Source of the DNA: Gemmataceae bacterium
GTDB taxonomy: Bacteria; Planctomycetota; Planctomycetia; Gemmatales; Gemmataceae
Direction: 5' to 3'
DNA length: 64,000 nucleotides
NCBI GenBank assembly: GCA_019748295.1
Contig: JAIEPT010000019.1
Location: forward strand, 1 to 64,000
Within the stretch, counting starts at the first letter, position 1. Each line of letters begins with the position of its first letter. Under the pieces are notes generated by a model. The model worked only from the letters and a program-made list of their open reading frames with translations, was not told the origin of the DNA and ran no database searches. Below are positions 30,083 to 43,500 of this stretch, in pieces. Position numbers and translations under genes: made by a program.

Positions 30083-31738
30083 TTAGGCCGTCGCCAGTGC
30101 CGTGTCTTGCTGTTCGCTATTTATCGCCCCAAGGTGCTTCTTAAACATGGCCAGGTTCTTGTCGAGCTTCTTCCGCAACGTCCCGGCTTTCTTGCCGATC
30201 TTCTCGCCACTGCGCTTCACCGTGGTTGCCCATTTGGTGATTTGGTCCAACGCCGCGATGTCGCTCGTAATAGCGACCAGCGCCGCTTTCAGGGCAACAA
30301 AGCTGGACCTGTTCTTGGCGTCCGCGAGTTGCTCTCGGATCACCAAGGCTTTCGCCACCGACAAGCCGACTCGCAGATAAATGTCCGTTGTCGGATTGTC
30401 TCGGTCCCAAACGACGACAATGTGCTTGCCATGGCGAGAGAAGGGGGCGAGGCCCGCAGGGGCCGTGGTCTTCGAGAACACGAAGATGCCGATCTGGGCC
30501 TCCCGATTGTGTCGTGCCTGCTCGATTTCCTTCAAGGCTTTGACCAAATCGTAGCTCTTGTCCTCCTTGGCTTCCAACACGATCCTCGCACCGGGAACCG
30601 CGCTTTCGGCTCCGAGCGTGACGATATGATCGCCCATCTTGCAGTAAGAAATCGCCCCCGTCTTGTTTCCAGTTTCCTCGAAGATATCGCAGGACTTCTG
30701 CGCTTCAGCCTGAACGATGCTGCCAACCGCTTCCTCGAACTCCCCGCCGTGGCGGGTCGAGCGTGCGGCCTCTTCTCGCCGGGCCTTAAATGATTCGAGC
30801 GTGACTTTGACCTCGTTGTGGAAGTCGGCACTGGACTCCTGCATCTTCTGGATGACCTCGGTGAGTTCCCGTCGCAATCGGTAGAGCGGAGAATTCTCGT
30901 TGTCGAGCGTCAGGTTGTCGGTGATGGTTGCGTTAGCCTTCTCCATCAACCCCACAAGACGGCAAAGCGCGGACTTCTTGTTGTCCAGGGAAAATTCATC
31001 GGTGATCGTTCTCTGCGCTTTTTCGACTCTGCCAACCAAGCGTGAAAGCGCTCCCTGCTCGTTGTCGAGCGAAAACTCCTTGTGGAGCTTTTCAACGTCC
31101 TTGGCAAAATCCTCCCGCAACTTGCCGTTGGTTCCGGTCATCTCGCTGACCATCCTGGATAAAGCGGACTCCTTGTCATCCAAGCTGAACTGGCGGAGGA
31201 TGTGGCCTCGTTGCAGTTCCAAAGCTTCAGCCACCGCCTGGCCAAGAGACGCAACAACCCCTTCGCTTTCTTCCGGCGAGAGTAAACGAAGGAGCGGGCT
31301 GTCGTCGCCAATGTGCTTGGACAAAGTTCGGGCGACCACGCACTGGTCGCCGTCCAGATGGCTTGCCAGAAGAGACTGCAACTCGCCGTCCTTCTTGATG
31401 AGCCGGTCAAGTCGCTGGTGCAGATGGCCCTCGGCGGGGTCAAAATACGTCTTCAGTGTTGAGGCCACGTTAGTCAGAAATGTCGTCGTGTTGGCCGACA
31501 GCAGCTCCCGGACGGAACCGACAAGACGTTCTCCCTCGGCCCGGACGGCACTGGCGTCTACGACGCCGCTCGCCTGGCGCAGTGCCAAGACGCCAATCCG
31601 CAAGGCGGAAGTGGCAAACTGGTCACGCTCCCTGCCGTCCTCGAACTTGTTTAGTTCGAGGACAACCTCCGGTTCACGGATCGTCAACGAGAGGCGAACG
31701 CAAGAAGGCAGAACAGGCGATTTATCGGCGGCAATCAT
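30083..31738 (-). CDS. nuclease-like protein with tandem internal repeats
   Basis: 551 residues from the ATG at 31738, chosen because CGGAG lies just upstream; the frame is open 21 codons further. The middle (about 190-330) has four tandem units built on FSLDNxxxALSRLVxxxEKAxxxIxD: FSLDDKESALSRMVSEM, FSLDNEQGALSRLVGRVEKA, FSLDNKKSALCRLVGLMEKA, LTLDNENSPLYRL. The C-terminal part (about 355-470) looks like a PD-(D/E)xK nuclease core: GGEFEEAVGSIV, KMGDHIVTL, ARIVLEAKEDKSYDL. It follows the DUF3892 gene by 86 bases on the same strand, in divergence from the sigma-54 regulator. Predicted defence-related endonuclease; unnamed. Confidence 0.7.
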   Translation of the reverse strand: MIAADKSPVLPSCVRLSLTIREPEVVLELNKFEDGRERDQFATSALRIGVLALRQASGVVDASAVRAEGERLVGSVRELLSANTTTFLTNVASTLKTYFDPAEGHLHQRLDRLIKKDGELQSLLASHLDGDQCVVARTLSKHIGDDSPLLRLLSPEESEGVVASLGQAVAEALELQRGHILRQFSLDDKESALSRMVSEMTGTNGKLREDFAKDVEKLHKEFSLDNEQGALSRLVGRVEKAQRTITDEFSLDNKKSALCRLVGLMEKANATITDNLTLDNENSPLYRLRRELTEVIQKMQESSADFHNEVKVTLESFKARREEAARSTRHGGEFEEAVGSIVQAEAQKSCDIFEETGNKTGAISYCKMGDHIVTLGAESAVPGARIVLEAKEDKSYDLVKALKEIEQARHNREAQIGIFVFSKTTAPAGLAPFSRHGKHIVVVWDRDNPTTDIYLRVGLSVAKALVIREQLADAKNRSSFVALKAALVAITSDIAALDQITKWATTVKRSGEKIGKKAGTLRKKLDKNLAMFKKHLGAINSEQQDTALATA

Positions 31739-31824
31739 GGTCACTCCGGGAGAATTTGCAAGGGCAGCAAGCAGATGATCTGGACAGGGAGTTGCCGCCA
31801 CGAGTCGCCGTGGCGGCGTTCAGT

Positions 31825-32112
31825 TCAACGGCATTCTGGGAGGCTGAGCAGGTTGTCGGGTTGCTCGCCGTCGTTCTCGGTTTTGAGGTACTTGTTTCCG
31901 AACCGGCTCACGGAGACGATCACTCTCGCTGTCGAGCCGCCACGGCGAACGTAGAAGGACCATTTGCCGTTTTCGATCCCGGTGATGGCGTCCTGCTGCG
32001 TGATCTTCCAGGCCGTTCCATCGCCGTTTCGACCGCCGATGTGCGTGATCCGCTCGTGCGCATTCGTGCGATCGCTTTTGTTGATGCAGAGGACTTCGTG
32101 CCGATCCGCCAT
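31825..32112 (-). CDS. DUF3892-family protein
   Basis: 95 residues matching DUF3892: RITHIGGRNGDGTAWKITQQ, DAITGIENGKWSFYVRRGG, VSRFGNKYLKTENDGEQPDN and the C-terminal LLSLPEC. The family is small and common on mobile elements; function unknown. It overlaps nothing and precedes the nuclease-like gene on the same strand, so they probably form an operon. The start at 32112 (MADRHEVLC) is preferred over a frame extension of 22 codons. Confidence 0.85.
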   Translation of the reverse strand: MADRHEVLCINKSDRTNAHERITHIGGRNGDGTAWKITQQDAITGIENGKWSFYVRRGGSTARVIVSVSRFGNKYLKTENDGEQPDNLLSLPECR

Positions 32113-32354
32113 GATGACTCTCCTTCTTGTCGAGGGTATCCAAACAAAATTGCTTGATGATACCGCATCGCAAAGCACTGGAAGTGCCGACAGTCGCTCT
32201 GAAAGCCTTGATCAGTTTGCCCCTGCTCGGAAAACCCTGGATTATCAAGCGTTTGCGGCAATCTGAAAGGCTGCGTTTTCCTAAATCGGCTTCCAATATC
32301 CCAACCGACAAGTACAATCGCGTTTGTGAATCTACAAATGATGTGGTGAACTTC

Positions 32355-33941
32355 ATGCCGACGCGACGTATCTTGTTTTCTTGGATCGGCCACGCGGATT
32401 TGCGGGCACTGGCGGCGACGTTGGCGGAAAGCGAGCAGCAGGAGGTTCTGAAGGGGATCAACCCGCCAAAGCCTTCGCCCGGTCAACCGGGGCCGTTGAA
32501 GTGCCTGCTCGACGCCGAACAGTTTGATGAAGTGCATCTCCTCAGCGATCACTCAACCGCCAAGAATCGCCTTTACCTCAAGTGGATCGGCAGCGACGCC
32601 GAACTTCATCCAGTCAAGCTGACCAATCCCACCGATTACCCGGAAGTCTTCAAGGTCGCTGACCGCGAACTCGCGTCGGTGGTCAATGTGCCCCGTCCGC
32701 ACCGAATTGATCTCTGCATTCATTTAAGCCCCGGCACGCCAACCATGACGGCGATCTGGCTGCTGCTCGGCAAGAGCAAGTACCCGGCGACGTTCTACCA
32801 GACGCACGACTGCAAAGCCTGGGTCACGAGCGTTCCGTTCGACCTGATGGTGGATTTCGTCCCGCAGGTGCTTCGAGACGCCGATGCCCGACTCCAACGA
32901 CTTTCGAGCGAAAGTCCCCAAGACGTAGCCGGTTTTGAAGGCATCGTTGGCGAGAGCCGAAGCCTCCGGGTCGCGGTGGGGCTGGCGCGGCGGGCGGCGC
33001 AGCGAGATGTGTCGGTGCTGATCCTTGGCGAAAGCGGCACTGGCAAGGAAAAGTTCGCTAGAGCCATCCATGACGCCAGCCCCCGCAAGGCGAAGAAGTT
33101 CGTCTCGATCAACTGCGCCGCCATATCCAGGGAGTTGCTCGAATCTGAACTGTTCGGCCATAAGAAAGGCGCGTTCACCGGAGCCGTCGAAGATCGACAC
33201 GGTGCCTTCAAGGAAGCTGATGGCGGCACGCTATTCTTGGATGAGATCGGCGAATGCGGCCCGGCGATGCAAGCCAAACTTCTTCGGGTGCTGCAACCGC
33301 CTGATGATGAACCCTGCCAGAGGGTCTTTTACCGGGTCGGCGAGTCGAAGCAAATCACCAGTGACGTCCGCGTTATCGCCGCCACGAACCGGGATTTGGT
33401 CGCCGCCATTGCTCGGAACGAGTTCCGGGACGACCTGTACTATCGTGTGGCGGCCATTACTTTAAAGCTGCCGCCTTTGCGGGAGCGCCGGGAAGACATT
33501 CCGTTGCTCGTGCCAAAGCTCCTCGGCCACATCAATGAGAACTTCGAGAAGCAGGAACCCGGCTACAAGCACAAAAAACTTTCTACTTCCGCCATGACGT
33601 TTGTTCGGAAGCATCCGTGGCCGGGCAATGTCCGGCAGTTGTTCAATACACTGCTGCAAGCGGCAGTGATGACGGACGGCGACGTGATTGACCGGCAGGA
33701 CGTTGCTGACGCCATTGCCGAAGTTCCGGGCAAGGCATCGGTCGATCTGATGGAGCAGCCGCTAGGCGAAGGCTTCGTATTGACCGATTTTCTCGAAGAA
33801 ATCCAGCGCCACTACCTGATCCGTGGCATGAAGGAGGCGGGCGGCGTGAAGACCAAAGCCGCCGAGCTTCTGGGCTACAAGAACTACCAGACACTCGCTG
33901 CCCAACTGGAGCGGCTAAAGGTCGAAGTCCCGACAGTCTGA
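32355..33941 (+). CDS. sigma-54-dependent activator with RtcR/CARF-like sensor domain
   Basis: 528 residues. The N-terminal about 185 residues resemble the CARF-type sensor of RtcR: ILFSWIGHADLRAL, FDEVHLLSDH, and LCIHLSPGTPTMTAIWLLLG (about 118-137), where the G-T-x-x-M turn is the expected ligand loop. The AAA+ domain has Walker A GESGTGKE (about 224-231), the sigma-54-contact loop GAFTGA (272-277), Walker B TLFLDEIGE (about 293) and sensor RVIAATNRDL. The C-terminal Fis-like helix-turn-helix is AAELLGYKNYQTLAAQLE (about 503-520). It should bind a nucleotide-type signal and activate the -24/-12 promoter that lies 15 bases after its stop, ahead of hsdR. Confidence 0.88.
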   Translation: MPTRRILFSWIGHADLRALAATLAESEQQEVLKGINPPKPSPGQPGPLKCLLDAEQFDEVHLLSDHSTAKNRLYLKWIGSDAELHPVKLTNPTDYPEVFKVADRELASVVNVPRPHRIDLCIHLSPGTPTMTAIWLLLGKSKYPATFYQTHDCKAWVTSVPFDLMVDFVPQVLRDADARLQRLSSESPQDVAGFEGIVGESRSLRVAVGLARRAAQRDVSVLILGESGTGKEKFARAIHDASPRKAKKFVSINCAAISRELLESELFGHKKGAFTGAVEDRHGAFKEADGGTLFLDEIGECGPAMQAKLLRVLQPPDDEPCQRVFYRVGESKQITSDVRVIAATNRDLVAAIARNEFRDDLYYRVAAITLKLPPLRERREDIPLLVPKLLGHINENFEKQEPGYKHKKLSTSAMTFVRKHPWPGNVRQLFNTLLQAAVMTDGDVIDRQDVADAIAEVPGKASVDLMEQPLGEGFVLTDFLEEIQRHYLIRGMKEAGGVKTKAAELLGYKNYQTLAAQLERLKVEVPTV

Positions 33942-33955
33942 TTACACGCACCACA

Positions 33956-33970
33956 TGGCACACCGCTTGC
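33956..33970 (+). promoter_or_regulatory. sigma-54 (-24/-12) promoter for the hsdRMS-gajAB operon
   Basis: TGGCAC at 33956-33961, five bases, then TTGC at 33967-33970, matching the sigma-54 consensus with the correct spacing. Transcription would start near 33981, about 57 bases before the hsdR ATG. The gene just upstream encodes a sigma-54 activator, which makes the call strong. Confidence 0.87.
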
Positions 33971-34037
33971 CTTAGACTCACAAATCATCTTGTGTGATCT
34001 TGAACAGACGCGGCGGCTCGCATCGGCAGAGGCGTTT

Positions 34038-37000
34038 ATGCAATCGAAGAACTTTGAGTTCCTACGACCGACGTGGGCGGATTTGGCGGAACTCGGCGCT
34101 TTCGCCGAGCAATACGCCAACCCCGACCCACAGAGCGCCGTAGCCAAGCTACGAAACTTTGCCGAGCAGATCGTCCTGTTCATCTACCACAAGCACGGGC
34201 TGCCGAAACCCTTTCAGCCAAATCTTAACGACCTGCTGACCGCCGCCGCATTCGTCCAGGCGGTCCCCAGGGTCATCGTCTCCAAGTTGCATACGCTCCG
34301 CATCCAGGGCAACAAGGGAGCGCACGGAGAAACGGTCCTGTCGCAGTCGGCGATCATGCTTCTTCAGGAAGCCTTTGAGCTTGGCCGCTGGATGCACATC
34401 AATTACGCCAATGGCAAGAAAGACGATTGTCCAGCGTTCAATGCTCCCAGCCCTGGCGAAGCAACCGAGATCGAGAAGAAGCTCAAGAAGGAGAAGACGT
34501 CAATCCTGCAGCTGTACGCTGCTCAGGAAGCCGAGATGCATAAGCTCTTGGCGGACCTCGAAGCGACTCGCTCGAAGGCGAAAGTCGCCGAGGAGACGGT
34601 CGCACAACTCCAAGCCGTGCAAACTCACGGCCAACAAGTTGCCGACGCCCTGGCGTTCGATGAGGCCACGACCCGTCATCGTCTCATCGACACTGCCCTG
34701 GTTTCCGCCGGATGGAATGTCGGGGCCAAGGGCGCGAACACGGAGCAGGTCGGCCAGGAGATCGAAGTCGATCACCAACCGACCGCCAGCAAGAAGGGCA
34801 AGGCCGATTACGTTTTATGGGGCGACAACGGCAAGCCCGTCGGCGTGATCGAGAGCAAGAAAACCGCCGTTGATCCAGAAGTCGGTCGCACCCAGGCCAA
34901 GTGCTATGCCGATGGCTTGGAAAAGGCGCACGGCCAGCGGCCCGTCATCTTCTACACGAACGGTTACGACATCTGGATGTGGAACGACGCTGCGGGCGAG
35001 CCGCCCCGCAAGCTCTACGGTTTCTACTCGCCCGAAAGCCTGCTGTACCTGCTCTATCAGCGGACCAACAAAGAGTCGCTGGCCAAAACCGCTCCGAGTC
35101 CATTGATCGCCGGGTACATGTATCAGATCGAGGCAATCAAGCGGGTAGTCGAACGATTTGCCGCAAAGCACCGGCATGCTTTGATTGTGATGGCGACCGG
35201 GACCGGCAAGACCCGCGTGGCGATCTCGCTTTGTGACGTGTTGCTGCGTGCGAAGTGGGCCAAACGGATTCTGTTCCTCTGCGACCGTAAGGAACTCCGC
35301 AAACAGGCGCACAACACTTTCAAGGGGCATCTGCCCGGTGAACCTCGCACTTATGTCACGTCTGCCACGTCGAAGGATCGTGACAAGCGCATCTACCTCG
35401 CCACCTACCCGGCGATGATGGAGTGCTACGAGTCGTTCGACGTGGGGTTCTTCGACCTGATCATCGCCGACGAATCGCACCGCAGCATCTATAACCGCTA
35501 CCGGGAACTGTTCGCTCACTTCGACTGCCTGCAAGTGGGACTGACGGCCACCCCGGTCGAGTTCATCGCCCGCAACACCTACAAGATTTTCGGCTGCGAA
35601 GATCGTGACCCCACGGCCTACTTCAGCTTCGAGGATGCCATCAACAGCGTCCCGCAGTGGCTCGTGCCGTTCGAGGTTATCACGCACACGACCCCGTTCT
35701 TGCGCAAGGGAATCAAGTATTCGGAGATGTCGCCCGAACAGCGGCAGCAGCTCGAAGAAGACGAGGCGGCTCCCGCCGCCGTTGAGTTCGATCAAGCCGA
35801 CGTGGACAAGGCAGTGTTCAACAAGGACACCAACCGGGTGATCCTGCGAAATCTGATGGAAAACGGGATCAAAGACACCACTGGCACACGGGTAGGCAAG
35901 TCGATCATCTTCGCCCGCAACCACAACCACGCCATCCTGCTGCAAAACCTGTTTGACGAGATGTACCCGCAGTACGGTGGGCAGTTCTGCCGGGTCATCG
36001 ACAACTACGACCCCCGTGCCGAAGAACTGATTGATGACTTCAAAGGCGATGGGAACAACCCGGAACTGACCATCGCCATCTCGGTGGACATGCTCGACAC
36101 CGGCATCGACGTGCCAGAGATCGTGAATCTCGTCTTCGCCAAGCCGGTCTACTCGTACGTCAAGTTCTGGCAGATGATCGGGCGAGGAACCCGCCTCTGC
36201 GAAAACTTGTTTGGGCCGGACAAGCACAAGACGCACTTCCTGATCTTCGATCACTGGAAGAACTTTGAGTATTTCGACCAGCACTACCAAGCCGCCGAGC
36301 CGAAGCAGTCCAAGTCGTTGCCGCAGATCGTCTTCGAGAACCGCATCAGGTTGGCCGAAACTGCGCTGCATCAAGCGAAGCCCGAAGTGTTCGAGATGGC
36401 GATTGACCTGATCGCCAAGGATATCGCTGATTTGCCGGGCAAAACCATCGCCGTGAAGGAAAAGTGGAAGGAGATCAAAGCCGTCAGCAACCAGGACCGG
36501 CTGCGGCAGTTCGACGCCGCCACCAAGAACATGCTGCTGCACGAGATCGCCCCGCTCATGCAGTGGCGCAACATCGGGGGCAACGAGGCGGCGCACAAGT
36601 TCGATCTGCTCGTCTGCCGAATACAGACCGAACACTTGAAGAAGTCGAGCAGCTTCGAGGACTTGAAGATCAACCTCCAAGACCAGCTCAACGACCTGCG
36701 CATGAACTTGTCCCAGGTGAAGGCCGTGGCTCCGCTGATTGTGGAGGCCCGCACGAACGACTTCTGGATCGGCATAAGCGTCCAGAAACTCGAAGACCTA
36801 CGGGGCAAGCTCCGGGGCGTGGTGCAATATCGTCAGGGCGGCGGCGGAGGCAGTGGCCCGTTGCCGCCAAAGGTCATCGACATCAAGGAAGACCCCTCGC
36901 TAATCGAGCGCAAGAAACACGCCGTCAAGCTCGAAGGGCTGCAACTCGCCGCGTACCGCAACCGGGTTGAGAAGGTTCTGCGAGATTTGTTTGAAACGAA

Positions 37001-37439
37001 CGATACGCTCAAGCGAATTAAGGCAGGCCAGCCGGTCAGTGACTCCGACCTGGACTCGCTGACCTCGCTCGTGCTGACGCAAGACCCGATGCTGAACCTG
37101 CACGATCTCGTGGAGTATTACCCCGACTGTGCCGGGCACTTGGACCTCGCCATTCGCAGCATCATCGGCCTCAATGCGGCGGCGGTCGGCAAACGCTTCA
37201 CAACTTTCGTACAGCAGCACCCGACGTTAAACTCGGCGCAGATACGGTTTCTGGACCTCCTCCAGAACCACATCGCCAAGTACGGCTCCATCGAGCTCGA
37301 CCGGCTCTACGAAGCTCCGTTCACCACCATTCATACCGACAGCATTGACGGCCTGTTCCCGGATGAGGATCAGGCGACCGAGATCATCGAGATCATCAAG
37401 CAGTTTCAGCCGATCAAGGAAGGGACATCGAAGGCATGA
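34038..37439 (+). CDS. hsdR: type I restriction enzyme, R subunit
   Basis: 1133 residues from the ATG at 34038, with AGAGG upstream; a TTG-start extension to 33990 would begin too close to the predicted transcript start. The N-terminus has a DUF4145-like helical part ([18 protein letters not shown]), then the PD-(D/E)xK nuclease with KADYVLWGD and VGVIESKKT (about 255-273). The SF2 helicase motor has [11 protein letters not shown] (about 383) and [10 protein letters not shown] (about 474), with motif VI IGRGTRL near 715. An EcoEI-type C-terminal domain follows. It translocates DNA and cleaves unmodified invaders with HsdM and HsdS. It overlaps hsdM by 4 bases. Confidence 0.93.
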
Positions 37440-38950
37440 TTACCGGCACGCTACGCAACCAGATCGACAAGCTCTGGACCGAATTCTGGACCGGGGGCAT
37501 CACCAACCCGCTCACGGTCATCGAACAGATTTCGTTCCTGATGTTCTCCCGTCTGCTTGACATCACCGAGACACGGGCCGAGAAGCGGTCGTCCCGCCTG
37601 AGCAAGCCCTTCAAGGGGCAGTTCAGCGTCAAGGAGCAGAAACTCCGCTGGTCAAACTTCAAGAACTTGCCCGCCGAGCAGATGCTCAAGACGGTGCGGG
37701 ACGAAGTGTTCCCGCACTTCCGCAACCTCGGCGACAGCGAATCGACCTTCGCCGAGTACATGACCGACGCCCAACTTCTCATTCAAAAGCCGAGCCTGCT
37801 TGTATCGGCGGTCAACATGATCGACGCCTTGCCGCTGACAGAAGGCGACACCAAGGGCGACCTTTACGAGTACCTGCTCGGCAAGTTGACCACGGCGGGT
37901 ATCAACGGCCAGTTCCGCACGCCCCGTCACATCATCCGGCTTATGGTCGATCTGATCGAACCGAAGCCGAACGAGATCATCGGCGATCCGGCCTGTGGCA
38001 CGGCGGGCTTCCTCGTCGGCGTCATGCAGCACTTGCTCGAAAAATACACGTCGCCCCAGGGCATCGTCACCCACGACGACGGCCAAAAGACCTACACCGG
38101 CGACCTGCTGGAACCCTACCGCAAGCACATTCAAACGCAGTTGTTCCACGGCTACGACTTCGACGCCACGATGCTCCGTATCGCCGCCATGAACCTGATG
38201 CTGCACGGCGTTGATTCGCCCGACATCCACTACCAGGACACCCTCAGTAACTCGTTCCCGGAAAAGTTCCCCAAACAGGCCACGGACGGCTTCGACGTGA
38301 TTCTGGCGAATCCGCCCTTCAAGGGCAGCCTGGACGAGTCCGACGTGCATTCCTCGATCACCGGCAAGGTGAAGACGAAGAAGACCGAACTCCTCTTCGT
38401 CGCCCTCATTCTGCGAATGCTCAAGCTCGGCGGGCGGGCGGCGATCATCGTGCCGGACGGCGTGCTGTTCGGTTCATCCAACGCCCACCGTGATCTCCGC
38501 AAGCTGCTCGTAGACGAGAACCAACTTGAGGCGGTGATCTCCATGCCGTCCGGTGTCTTCAAGCCGTATGCGGGTGTATCCACGGCCATCATGATCTTCA
38601 CCAAGGGCGGCAAGACCGACCGGGTGTGGTTCTACAAGATGGAGTCGGACGGCTTCAGCCTAGACGACAAGCGGGAGAAGATCGGCGACGGCACGGGCGA
38701 TCTACCGGACATCCGGGAGAAATGGTTCGCTAGGGAGAAGGCGAAGAAGAACGACCGCAAGGCCAAGCACTTCTTCGTGCCGGTTAAGGAGATTCGGGAC
38801 AACAAGTTTGACCTGTCGATCAACCGCTACCGGGAAACCGAGTACGAGGAGGCCACGTTCGACCCACCGCAGGAGATCATGCAGCGGCTCCGCTCACTGG
38901 ATGAGGAAGTCAGCCGTGACATGGACGAATTGGAGGCGCTGCTGAAATGA
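37436..38950 (+). CDS. hsdM: type I restriction-modification methyltransferase, M subunit
   Basis: 504 residues. An N-terminal helical HsdM domain ([31 protein letters not shown]) precedes the N6-adenine methylase domain with motif [14 protein letters not shown] (about 183-195) and catalytic NPPF (about 289-293). The region after it, [22 protein letters not shown], is typical. It methylates adenine in the HsdS-specified site using S-adenosylmethionine. It is coupled by 4-base overlaps to hsdR and hsdS. Confidence 0.94.
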
Positions 38951-40191
38951 GCGTTGCATTCCCCTTGGGCAAACTCGAATTTGATCCACCATCAAATTGG
39001 ACCCAAACTTTCGTGGGCCAAATTTGCGATGAGAACGACGGCGACGTGCAAACCGGGCCGTTCGGAAGTCAACTTCATGCCTCTGACTATTCAGACGAGG
39101 GTGTTCCTCTCGTCATGCCACAAGATATGGCTGACGGCAAGATTCTGACAACGAAGATCGCCCGTGTTGATTCATCGCATGTCGAGCGCCTGAGTAAACA
39201 CATGCTCCGCACAGGTGACATTGTTTTCAGCAGGCGAGGCGATGTAGCACGCTTCGCCATAGTGAACTGTGCTGAGCAAGGATGGCTGTGCGGAACCGGC
39301 AGTGTGCGGATTCGCCTAAACAGTCCGCTCATCGACACCCTGTTTCTCCGCCGTTTTCTCCAGCTTGACTCGGTTGGAAAGTGGCTCAACCACCAAGCAA
39401 AGGGTATCACGATGCCCAACCTCAACACGGGCATCCTTCGAGCCTTGCCACTGTATTTCCCTTCCCTGCCCGAACAGCGTCAGATCGCCGCCATTCTCGA
39501 CAAGGCCGACGCCGTACGTCGCAAGCGAGAGGAAAGCATCCGGTTGACCGAGGAATTGCTGCGCTCCACCTTCCTGGAAATGTTCGGCGATGTGGCGACC
39601 GCCCCGGCGAAGCCGCTCGCAGAACTTGCTGAGGTAGTGTCCGGCGTCACGAAAGGCCGCAAGCTAAATGGCCGGGCAGTGACAGTGCCATACTTGCGAG
39701 TTGCGAATGTCCAAGATGGGTTCCTCAATCTGGATGAGATCAAGACGATTGAGGCGCTTCCCAGCGAAGTTGAAGCACTGGCGCTCAAAGCGGGCGACAT
39801 CGTGATGACTGAAGGCGGCGATCACGACAAGCTCGGTCGTGGGGCAATCTGGACAGGAGCAGTTCAGAACTGCATCCACCAGAATCATGTCTTTCGTGTT
39901 CGAGTGAACCAGAGGCATATCTTGCCCGATTACTTCGCTACCTATTTGCGGACCAGTGAGGCCAAGCAGTATTTCTTACGCTGCGCCAAGAAGACGACGA
40001 ATCTTGCCAGCATCAACATGACTCAGTTGCGTGGCCTTCCCGTGCCTCTTCCGTCCGTCCGGCTTCAGCAGAAATTCCAGGATGCTGCAAAGGCAATCTA
40101 TGAATTGTCGGCGGCTCGGAAAAAGGCGGCGCATGAGTCGCAATCGCTTTTCGGCTCACTCGTCCAACGGGCCTTTCGAGGAGAGCTATGA
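38947..40191 (+). CDS. hsdS: type I restriction-modification specificity subunit
   Basis: 414 residues with two target-recognition domains and conserved spacer helices. TRD1 (about 10-170) ends [20 protein letters not shown]. The first conserved helix [29 protein letters not shown] follows at about 178-206. TRD2 runs about 215-375, ending [16 protein letters not shown]. The closing helix is [30 protein letters not shown]. It defines the bipartite site recognised by HsdM and HsdR; the recognised sequence cannot be inferred. The gene is complete. Confidence 0.92.
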
Positions 40192-40772
40192 GCCACATCC
40201 TCGACCTCGATAAAGCGATCAACGAGATCATCGCCTCGAACGAGCGCATCCAGACGTTCTGGACCAAAGAAGCGTCCGGCTGGTCGCCCAGAGAGACAGC
40301 CGAGTTGCTGGAGAGCTCTCGGATGGATCGCCTCGTGTCCTTGTCCCGGAGCCTGCGTCTTTGGGCCGAGCCGTGCGCCGAGGAAGACCGAGAAGGCCGA
40401 CTAATCCTGGCCTGGGCCAATCTCGGCATACTCGTTGAAGGCACGATGACGTGGTTCCTATGCGTCTTCGAGAGCGATTACGCCAAGCAACCCATGAAGG
40501 CGAAGGCTGGCTTCGACCTGCGACCGAACCGGCTGCGTTTCGAGGAAATGTGCCGCTTCTTCAGCGAACATGTTTGGATCGACTCCCAGCGTGCCGAGTG
40601 GGACGACTGGCTTGCAAATGTCCGCAACTTCCGCAACGCCGTCCACGCCTTCAACCACCGGCACATCGGCGACTGGAACGATTGGCAGGATGCCGTGGTG
40701 CGTTACCACGACTTCATCGGTGAGTTGGACGGACGAGTGCCATACCCGGAAGCCAGGGACTACTACGCCTGA
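40188..40772 (+). CDS. HEPN-like protein in the restriction-Gabija operon
   Basis: 194 residues, all-helical. GRLILAWANLGILVEGTMTWFL and VRNFRNAVHAFNHRHIGDW (about 145-163) fit a HEPN-type R-x4-6-H arrangement (R-N-F-R-N-A-V-H). HEPN proteins are often RNases or abortive toxins, but some are inactive partners. It overlaps hsdS by 4 bases, so it is expressed with the restriction system. Homologues next to type I systems are plausible but I cannot check. HEPN assignment is moderate. Confidence 0.62.
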   Translation: MSHILDLDKAINEIIASNERIQTFWTKEASGWSPRETAELLESSRMDRLVSLSRSLRLWAEPCAEEDREGRLILAWANLGILVEGTMTWFLCVFESDYAKQPMKAKAGFDLRPNRLRFEEMCRFFSEHVWIDSQRAEWDDWLANVRNFRNAVHAFNHRHIGDWNDWQDAVVRYHDFIGELDGRVPYPEARDYYA

Positions 40773-40798
40773 TGGTGTCGAGGTCGGAGAATTGTGAA

Positions 40799-41626
40799 AT
40801 GACAATCACGTTCAACCAACGGATACCGCCGTTCGCCGCCGAACGCCTGGAGGCCATCAGTAAAGTCCTTGCCGACACGAACGAGGGGCTTACCGGCACA
40901 GAGATCGACCATCTCCTGCGGAGCTGCAACATCTCCGACCCGACGCCGGACATGACCAAGTGGAAGCGGCTGCACAATGCTTTCGTGGAGTTCCAGAACG
41001 AGCATCAAGTGGGCAACCACGTTGTCGTCTTCATCAAACGGTCAATGGACCCGGCTCGATATGTTGGGAAGCCGCAGGTCTTTCGTTATCGCCGGGACCG
41101 CCTGAACTCGGTGTTGGCATTCTGTGGCTACACGCTTGGCGAGGATGGTCAACTTCGCAAGGCGGACGCCGCTCGCACGATCAGCGAGGCGCTGGAGCGG
41201 GCCAACCGCCTGCACGCCGCCCTGATCCAGCGCAGCGTCCACGCCGACGTGCTGAAGTTCTGCAAGGCGGAACTGCTCGAAGAGAACTACTTCCACGCCG
41301 TCTTCGAGGCCATGAAAAGCGTAACGGCCAAGATCAGGACGCTGACCGGCATGACCGGCGACGGTTGCGACCTCGTTCACGACGCCTTCGGCCAGAAGTA
41401 CGGCGACCCACTCCTGGTGATTAACTCGTTCCAGACCGAGACACATAAGGGTGAGCAATACGGCTTCATGAATCTGCTCAAAGGGTTATACGGCACGATA
41501 CGCAACCCTCTCGCCCACACGCCGAAAACCGAGTGGGACATGACGGAGCAGGACGCCCTCGACATCCTGACCATGATCTCTTTGGTCCACAGGAAGCTGG
41601 ATCAAGCTCGCCGGTTCCGCCCGTGA
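40799..41626 (+). CDS. TIGR02391-family (Ymh) HEPN-like protein
   Basis: 275 residues; the start MTITFNQRIPPFAAERLEAI is chosen because GGAG lies 11 bases upstream. The C-terminal domain (about 140-270) matches TIGR02391/Ymh: HADVLKFCKAELLEENYFHAVFEAMKSV, DLVHDAFG, GEQYGFMNLLKGLYGTIRNP and the R-N-P-L-A-H motif followed by W-D-M-T-E-Q-D-A-L-D. R-x4-H is the HEPN catalytic pattern. The N-terminal half (about 1-130) includes helical and wHTH-like pieces (LTGTEIDHLLRSCNI). Predicted RNase or effector-like component of the operon. It lies 26 bases after the previous gene. Confidence 0.78.
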   Translation: MTITFNQRIPPFAAERLEAISKVLADTNEGLTGTEIDHLLRSCNISDPTPDMTKWKRLHNAFVEFQNEHQVGNHVVVFIKRSMDPARYVGKPQVFRYRRDRLNSVLAFCGYTLGEDGQLRKADAARTISEALERANRLHAALIQRSVHADVLKFCKAELLEENYFHAVFEAMKSVTAKIRTLTGMTGDGCDLVHDAFGQKYGDPLLVINSFQTETHKGEQYGFMNLLKGLYGTIRNPLAHTPKTEWDMTEQDALDILTMISLVHRKLDQARRFRP

Positions 41627-41649
41627 CTTTTGAAGAGGCCTGGTAGATC

Positions 41650-43500
41650 ATGAGAATATCCCGGATCGAGATCACGAACTTCAGAAACTTCCGGCACCTG
41701 GATGTGACTATCGGCATGCACGCCGTCATCGTAGGAGAGAACAAGATCGGCAAATCGAATTTATTGTTCGCCCTTCAACTCATCTTGGACCCTTCGTTAC
41801 CGGACTCCGAGCGGTGCTTAAGGCTCGAAGACTTTTGGGACGGATTAGAGCGGCCTCTGAACCAGAACGACCGAATCGAAGTATCGGTAGAACTATCAGA
41901 CTTCGACGACAACAATGACCATTTGGCGCTAGTCGGAGAGTTCCTGATTCAACCCGATCCGATGGTCGCTCGACTGACGTACGTTTACCAACCAGTTCCG
42001 AATCTTCCTGACGGGCCGAAGAAGGAAAGTGACTACGAGTTCGCCATTTACGGCGGCGGGCGACCAGAGTGCCGGGTCGGTTACGAGTTACGAAAAAAAC
42101 TGCCAATGAACATGCTCCCGGCCCTCCGGGACGCAGTAAGTGACCTGGCGAATTGGCGGAAGTCTCCGCTCCGCCCATTGCTCGATAAGATCGCCGGGGA
42201 AATGGACCGAGATCGGCTCAATGAACTTGCAGAAGGCGTGTCGAAAGCGACGGCTACTATCGCCGGAAGCGACGAAGTAAGGTCTGTCGGCGACCTCATC
42301 TCTCAAAGACTGTTGGAGATGGTCGGCTCGCTGCACGCATTGGAGATGTCGCTCGGATTTTTACCATCCGATGCGGAAAGACTGATCCGATCACTTCGCC
42401 TGTTCATCGACGGCGGGGAGCGTACCGTTGCAGATGCAAGCCTTGGTTCGGCGAATCTGTTGTATCTCGCTCTCAAAGCACTACAACTTGACCAACAGGT
42501 GAGCGAATGCGAACGCAGTCATACCTTTCTCGCCATTGAGGAGCCGGAGGCCCATCTGCATCCCCACGTCCAACGACGGGTTTATCGAGCCTTCCTTCGA
42601 CCACGCCAAGCCGTGCCAAACGGCGAGGCAGGCCCGGGAAAGCCTTCGCCAGAGATGACGATTCTTCTCACTACCCACTCTCCGAGTATCGTTAGTGTCT
42701 CCCCAGTTCACTCGCTCGTCCTCCTTCGCAAAACTGCCGATTTGACCTCAACCCTGGGCGTCTCGACGGCCAAGCTCGAATTGGATGCTGCCGAAGCCGA
42801 CGACATCGAGCGGTATCTCGACGTGACCAGGGGTGAAATGCTGTTTGCCAAAGGGGTGCTGCTCGTTGAAGGCGAGGCCGAGCAATACATGCTGCCAGTA
42901 CTGGCGGAGTTAAATGGCTACAACCTTGATGAGCTGGGAATTACTGTATGCTCGGTGGCGGGGACGCACTTTCTCCCATATCTGAAGTTTCTGGGGCCGA
43001 CTGGATTGAACATCCCCTACGCCGTGATAACGGATGCGGACCCGAACGTGCAGATCACCGGATTAAGCCGCATCCGACAACTGCTTGAATTTCTCGCCCC
43101 CGACGATTTGGAAGAACTGGCGGATGAAGACGAAATAATCGACCTTGGAAAACGACATGGCATCTTTCTGACTGAGGACACTTTCGAGGTTGCTCTCTTT
43201 CGTGGAGGAAGGCACGCCAGCTTCGCTACGACGATGGGCGAGTTGTCTTCCAATGCCGCAGCTAAGACTCGTGCAACCTCCTGGAAGGCGAACCCTACAA
43301 CGTTAGACGTAGACAAGATGCTGAAGGACATAAATGCCATTGGTAAAGGGCGGTTCTCGCAACGGTGGGCACTGCGCATAAGTCGCTCAAAAAGCAAAAG
43401 CTGCCCGACGTCAGTTTCGGAGGCACTGAAACATGTCACAAGTCGCATCCAGGTCCAGGCTCTACCTGAAAGCAGCGACGGAACTTCGGAAGAACCGTGA
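41650..43500 (+). CDS. gajA: Gabija protein GajA, OLD-family ATPase-TOPRIM nuclease
   Basis: 616 residues. The ABC ATPase half has Walker A GENKIGKSN (about 30-38), a signature-containing region DASLGSANLLYLALKAL (about 262-278), and Walker B LAIEEPEAHLHPHV (about 294-307) with TTHSP (about 339). The TOPRIM half has VLLVEGEAEQYMLP (about 403-416) and VITDADPNVQ (about 458). GajA is a nucleotide-gated endonuclease that acts with the GajB helicase against phages. It overlaps gajB by 68 bases. GajA looks intact. Confidence 0.85.
   Translation: MRISRIEITNFRNFRHLDVTIGMHAVIVGENKIGKSNLLFALQLILDPSLPDSERCLRLEDFWDGLERPLNQNDRIEVSVELSDFDDNNDHLALVGEFLIQPDPMVARLTYVYQPVPNLPDGPKKESDYEFAIYGGGRPECRVGYELRKKLPMNMLPALRDAVSDLANWRKSPLRPLLDKIAGEMDRDRLNELAEGVSKATATIAGSDEVRSVGDLISQRLLEMVGSLHALEMSLGFLPSDAERLIRSLRLFIDGGERTVADASLGSANLLYLALKALQLDQQVSECERSHTFLAIEEPEAHLHPHVQRRVYRAFLRPRQAVPNGEAGPGKPSPEMTILLTTHSPSIVSVSPVHSLVLLRKTADLTSTLGVSTAKLELDAAEADDIERYLDVTRGEMLFAKGVLLVEGEAEQYMLPVLAELNGYNLDELGITVCSVAGTHFLPYLKFLGPTGLNIPYAVITDADPNVQITGLSRIRQLLEFLAPDDLEELADEDEIIDLGKRHGIFLTEDTFEVALFRGGRHASFATTMGELSSNAAAKTRATSWKANPTTLDVDKMLKDINAIGKGRFSQRWALRISRSKSKSCPTSVSEALKHVTSRIQVQALPESSDGTSEEP

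Follow-up and report, generated by a model that had tools for sequence, protein, structure and literature searches.

A 551-amino-acid protein of a Gemmataceae bacterium, here called X, is probably a member of an unnamed family of coiled-coil PD-(D/E)xK nucleases that has been recruited into an RtcR-type CARF/sigma-54 regulon beside a type I restriction operon. The stretch analysed, hereafter the window, comprises positions 1-64,000 of contig JAIEPT010000019.1 (assembly GCA_019748295.1). For the X locus we computed the genes, a fold model, conserved catalytic residues, promoter-like sites, an enhancer-like element and the linkage to the regulator.

Architecture and fold of X

X is encoded on the minus strand at 30083-31738, where the frame is open throughout and an ATG at 31738 gives 551 residues (an alternative, longer start at a GTG would give 572). 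The protein comprises a helical N-terminal region, FSLDN-type units, a PD-(D/E)xK nuclease-like core and a long C-terminal helix. As an earlier note on this DNA had described, it carries four tandem FSLDN...LSRLV-type units (residues 184-289; 30872-31189, minus strand), which start at residues 184, 222, 249 and 276 with spacings of 38, 27 and 27, and a core that follows them with the motifs GDHIVTL (369-375) and LEAKED (388-393). Among 82 aligned proteins (X of the window and those of 81 fetched loci) a permissive motif finds one to five units per protein, with three units in 52 proteins, four in 21, two in seven and one or five in a single protein each, versus 0.05 units per protein in a shuffled control. 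No N-terminal transmembrane segment was found, the top 19-residue hydropathy in residues 1-120 being 1.06; the overall maximum, 1.72 at residue 479, lies inside the predicted C-terminal helix.

The core spans residues 330-450 (30389-30751, minus strand) and includes E335, G369-D370 and E389-x-K391. G369, D370, E389 and K391, all contained in GDHIVTL and LEAKED, are invariant in 82 of 82 aligned rows, E335 is nearly invariant, and the D...(D/E)xK signature of the PD-(D/E)xK superfamily is conserved in X (D370, E389 and K391). In the AlphaFold2 model of the whole protein, residues about 330-470 have a pLDDT of 92-98 and the alpha-beta core of the PD-(D/E)xK fold is present, in the order helix, strands 352-355, 371-374 and 385-391, helix, strands 416-444; modelled alone, the core has a mean pLDDT of 92. 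In line with the nuclease-like character suggested earlier, this nuclease-type fold superposes in VIA-align on McrC (6hz4_M; Z 9.8, rmsd 3.8, 131 aligned), Can2 (8bao_A; Z 9.6, rmsd 3.4, 131 aligned) and PaqCI (8em1_B; Z 9.2, rmsd 3.8, 133 aligned). The top Foldseek matches are restriction-type nucleases (MspJI 0.0037, McrC 0.008 and DdmD 0.012), none of the PDB matches falling under E 0.001, and a sequence search of the PDB returned no relative. Given the confident core model, the VIA matches and the invariant residues, the predicted nuclease fold of X is well supported, and X would on these grounds be expected to cleave DNA.

The earlier note had not recognised X as a known defence gene, and the protein is indeed unnamed in Pfam, NCBIfam, PADLOC and PHROGs. 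Specifically, Pfam gave only a sub-threshold match to Mrr_cat (PF04471; 18 bits versus a cut-off of 21, residues 368-446), the NCBIfam and PHROGs scans gave no family, and the PADLOC scan gave no convincing match, with weak PDC-S06 similarity in 19 of 82 members (best 4.1e-5). A literature search, with subscription papers mostly outside its scope, returned no account of X in an RtcR or restriction setting. The Mrr catalytic domain belongs to the same nuclease superfamily, and it matches 12 of the 82 members at E 0.01 or better (best 3.6e-5). This marginal similarity, together with the fold neighbours McrC, MspJI and AspBHI, would suit an enzyme akin to type IV systems, directed at modified DNA and covering phages that escape type I restriction by base modification. 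We consider such an activity unlikely, however, as neither an McrB-like motor gene nor a modified-base-binding domain was identified in X or its scanned neighbours and the Mrr similarity of the window protein remains below the Pfam cut-off.

A probable RtcR-type regulon beside type I restriction

The first gene of the divergent transcript encodes a 95-aa DUF3892 protein (31825-32112, minus strand; Pfam PF13031, E 6.5e-22). As previously described, it precedes X, and the two genes lie back-to-back with the regulator, with 242 bases between the start codons. The regulator (32355-33941, plus strand; Pfam domains CARF, sigma-54 AAA+ and HTH) is of the RtcR_PspF2 type and covers the whole PADLOC profile (PDLC01995, 1.7e-167; positions 2-481 of 481). 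It is followed on the same strand by hsdR (33990-37439), hsdM (37436-38950) and hsdS (38947-40191). The window HsdR carries an N-terminal DUF4145 domain (1.7e-5). Past hsdS and the gene of an unassigned 194-aa protein, further defence-type genes lie beyond the restriction operon: 40772-43500 encodes a PD-Lambda-3_B-like protein (6.5e-109) together with a GajA-like ATPase (1.3e-216). According to the available portions of the published accounts, RtcR-like CARF/NtrC regulators are often associated with R-M systems (published 2014; PMC4012209) and RtcR homologues occur with type I RM (PMC11090510); the window regulator is one such R-M-linked protein. The available part of the 2014 account mentions neither X nor DUF3892; the link of X to the regulon comes from the promoter-like and enhancer-like sites of the present loci.

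Before hsdR lies the sigma-54 promoter-like site TGGCACACCGCTTGCC (33956-33971, plus strand), the only site in the window without a mismatch to TGGCACN5TTGC. A weak -24/-12-like site, CGGCACTTCCAGTGCT (32174-32189, minus strand), lies 61 nt before DUF3892; by itself it is not above chance, and it aligns with the better site TGGCACAGCCATTGCG, 60 nt before DUF3892 in a related locus (L249), and the third relative (L250) has no good site. A window scan allowing up to two mismatches to the sigma-54 pattern returned 68 sites versus 69 expected, so single weak sites carry no weight. The comparison across loci was scored against TGGCACN5TTGCW, with a background of 0.09 per kb and strand at -1.5. A site of -1.5 or better occurs near the regulator stop in 13 of 14 regulator loci, within 160 nt past the stop and in one case 52 nt before it; the exception, the close regulator locus L195, has neither X nor a good site. 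At the same score, a site lies upstream of X in 9 of 9 linked loci (the DUF3892-X site of the window among them) versus 2 of 72 unlinked ones, 'unlinked' meaning that the fetched flanks, not the whole genome, hold no such regulator; at the stricter -0.7 the counts are 6/9 versus 0/72, the thresholds having been chosen after the first sites were seen and five of them compared. With two members of the single lineage formed by L082, L115 and L192 removed, all seven remaining linked X genes still have the site, and three X genes distant from their regulators (L244, L246 and L248) have sites of their own (scores -0.7, -0.7 and 0). This difference between linked and unlinked genes makes the co-regulation of X with the restriction operon by the RtcR-type regulator well supported.

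An enhancer-like element, TTTGTAGATTCACAAACGCGATTGTAC (32312-32338, minus strand), lies outward of the regulator, about 17 nt from its start. It was first spotted by eye upstream of regulators and then tested. In the window, L080, L089, L196 and L197, the palindromic pattern TTTGT-N6/7-ACAA-N3/5-ATTGTA lies 10-29 nt from the regulator on its outward side. These account for five of the seven matches obtained across 597 kb of strand (mean of 1.6 in shuffles), a count that is not independent because the pattern was defined on some of the loci concerned. A related pattern has a single occurrence in the 6.47-Mb genome, beside the window regulator. The element also adjoins the regulator in three loci fetched later (L249, L250 and L258) and is absent from the regulators of L251-L254. 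As for an enhancer common to both promoters of one locus, the best 16- and 20-mers did not rise above shuffles, and this candidate was rejected. Together, the sigma-54 sites and the enhancer-like element support the earlier proposal that X and the restriction operon are parts of one inducible system.

Gene order around X is variable. Among the 82 X loci, a regulator homologue lies within about 0.5 kb of X in the window, L080, L082, L089 and L115, and 7 kb away in L104; the X-linked regulators of these loci other than the window are likewise RtcR_PspF2 (2e-103 or better). L089 has the same arrangement as the window. L082 and L115 present a one-strand order of regulator, promoter-like site, X, hsdR, hsdM and hsdS, with 16 bases from the end of X to hsdR. 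L082 has a short HsdR of 794 aa, and a 1406-aa protein follows hsdS in L082 (9881-14101) and L115 (16740-20960); in the L082 protein, the one scanned, a single chain unites N6 methylase, specificity and AAA_16 ATPase domains. In L192, the neighbour of X is a 950-aa protein that has both a specificity and an AAA_16 domain. Elsewhere, the stretches fetched around the regulators of L251 and L252 (about 69% identical to that of the window) gave no hsd match, and the gene after the regulator encodes a protein of about 1,700 aa. In L197 (6237-16826), a Druantia III DruH-like gene lies on one side of an RtcR_PspF2 regulator and a divergent metallophosphatase and AAA_27 pair, which we take to be SbcCD-like, on the other; both sides have a sigma-54-like site.

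The idea that DUF3892 and X form a conserved pair was not sustained and is rejected. L249 and L250 each have a DUF3892 gene (85% and 70% identical, respectively) divergent from their regulator, yet their genomes gave no X match, and the nearest X relatives, L240 and L241, have no DUF3892 match in their fetched flanks. DUF3892 accompanies the regulator rather than X. The available part of one account describes a fold like those of dsRNA-binding domains and ribosome hibernation factors and proposes a sensing role for DUF3892 (PMC12419801).

Distribution of the X family

X relatives occur in 32 of 392 genomes of a phylum sample (E 0.001 or better) and in 56 of 397 genomes of a class sample (1e-5). 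A search of a contig collection, with the best 80 of 113 matching stretches retained, places X in Planctomycetota, Acidobacteriota, Myxococcota, Chloroflexota, Pseudomonadota and Spirochaetota, and more distant relatives lie on seven archaeal plasmids, near AAA, VWA, MBL-fold and UvrD-type helicase genes in L042 and L044. The phage records searched gave no match and the viral contigs a single locus.

A CARF domain is present in 38 of the 397 class-sample genomes (1e-10), and a CARF regulator and X occur together in nine genomes versus 5.4 expected by chance. In eight of these nine both lie on the same contig (the exception is G560): they are adjacent in G000, G274, G380, G603 (the same record as L082) and G741 (the same as L115), and about 9-22 kb apart on the same strand in G023, G027 and G649. 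No regulator lies near the closest X relatives (L240 and L241, about 68% identical), and G567 and G504 (the same record as L078) likewise yielded no regulator. In the X tree, all six regulator-linked genes used fall in one 11-row group with weak support, and the regulator-link label changes four times versus a shuffled mean of 5.9, a value as low being reached in 0 of 500 shuffles. The other division, of 65 rows, has no adjacent regulator and mostly housekeeping neighbours, recurrently a 1349-aa protein without a Pfam hit, PQQ proteins, phosphofructokinase, and what we presume from sequence to be a HemW-like protein and an ExeA-like ATPase. A PADLOC scan (1e-15) of the 76 nearest neighbours of 38 X loci, with L102 and L146 (X not called), L140 and L148 (sparse gene calls) and short-flank loci left out, returned 22 families, 20 of them with a single member.

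On co-occurrence with defence genes, a point by which the earlier note would have judged its reading, most X genes are not beside recognisable ones. Housekeeping genes are the neighbours of most members, so the X family does not serve as a defence marker; X is more probably a nuclease recruited into the regulon than a dedicated defence gene. The predominance of unlinked X genes, the absence of a nearby regulator in the closest X relatives and the genome-level co-occurrence of nine versus 5.4 count against recruitment, as do the weak divergent site of the window, the lack of a Foldseek match under E 0.001 and the X-less regulator locus L195. The 65-row division, with its housekeeping neighbours (HemW-like, phosphofructokinase and PQQ) and lack of adjacent regulators, is what a general chromosome-maintenance or DNA-repair nuclease with an RmuC-like role, lying beside the regulator by chance in some genomes, would produce. 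Of 21 related genomes only 2 yielded RmuC itself, and the genome of the window did not, so the RmuC role could be vacant. Chance placement is nonetheless rather improbable in view of the sigma-54 sites before all nine linked X genes versus 2 of 72 unlinked ones, the sites owned by three X genes 9-22 kb from their regulators, and the one-contig linkage in eight of the nine genomes having both.

Parallels and a proposed mechanism

The closest parallel to X is ShdA (Shield) of Pseudomonas. In the available portions of the published descriptions, Pseudomonas RtcR/type I loci include ShdA, a transmembrane coiled-coil RmuC-like nuclease (PMC11090510), which degrades DNA through its nuclease domain and protects against phages (PMC10270631). 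Both proteins combine a coiled coil with a REase-fold nuclease in RtcR-regulated type I RM loci, but X shows no RmuC domain and no N-terminal membrane segment, and it occurs in Planctomycetota and other phyla. An identity of X with RmuC or ShdA was rejected: PF02646 matches 0 of 82 members, and hhalign against E. coli RmuC gives a probability of 0.2%. X thus appears to resemble ShdA by position and architecture while failing the two defining ShdA features tested, the RmuC domain and the membrane segment. CoCoNuT superoperons offer a second likeness, an RtcR-type gene being followed by more restriction genes with X up to 22 kb downstream (G023, G027 and G649); among the window genes scanned (30083-43500), no McrB-type GTPase with a coiled-coil nuclease was identified, and X is a separate protein.

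Like the ShdA nuclease domains, X might act in abortive infection, degrading host and phage DNA once induced. The type of locus, with an RtcR-like regulator, type I RM and a coiled-coil nuclease, is the same in the available parts of both sources (PMC11090510; PMC10270631), and toxicity would fit tight control. Such decay as costly genes may undergo is also seen: X is reduced to residues 16-85 and 494-540 at the divergent position in G380 (L196), and the X gene of G023 (L244, 6349-8964) has an apparent interruption of ~1.2 kb near residue 397 of its subtype. We regard this role as somewhat unlikely, however, because X lacks RmuC homology and an N-terminal membrane segment, and many genomes keep X without a nearby regulator, so that it is not obviously toxic.

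For X as a recruited nuclease, we infer a chain of events in which the ligand, the cleavage of DNA, its target, an anti-phage effect and any part played by DUF3892 are conjectural. Infection or RNA damage would lead to the production of a ligand, for which RNA ends with a 2',3'-cyclic phosphate have been proposed in RtcR-type regulators (PMC11090510, available portion), and the CARF domain of the regulator would bind it. The activator would then bind the palindrome upstream of its own gene and open the sigma-54 promoters before hsdRMS and before DUF3892-X, after which X would cut DNA as an additional, normally silent line of defence. More tentatively, and short of an even chance in our estimation, the family may consist of a resident chromosomal division and a recruited one, the latter captured several times by RtcR-type regulons (within the hsdRMS operon, divergently, or at a distance with its own promoter) to serve as inducible effectors that destroy DNA, with an evolutionary origin separate from that of Pseudomonas ShdA.

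With its promoter and enhancer positions, the regulon provides a direct test bed for what RtcR-like CARF regulators of restriction sense and control. With X, the candidate defence genes gain an unnamed nuclease family, and the findings suggest that the pairing of type I restriction with a coiled-coil nuclease that is normally silent had more than one origin. X may give the bacteria that carry it in this setting an additional antiviral weapon under tight control.
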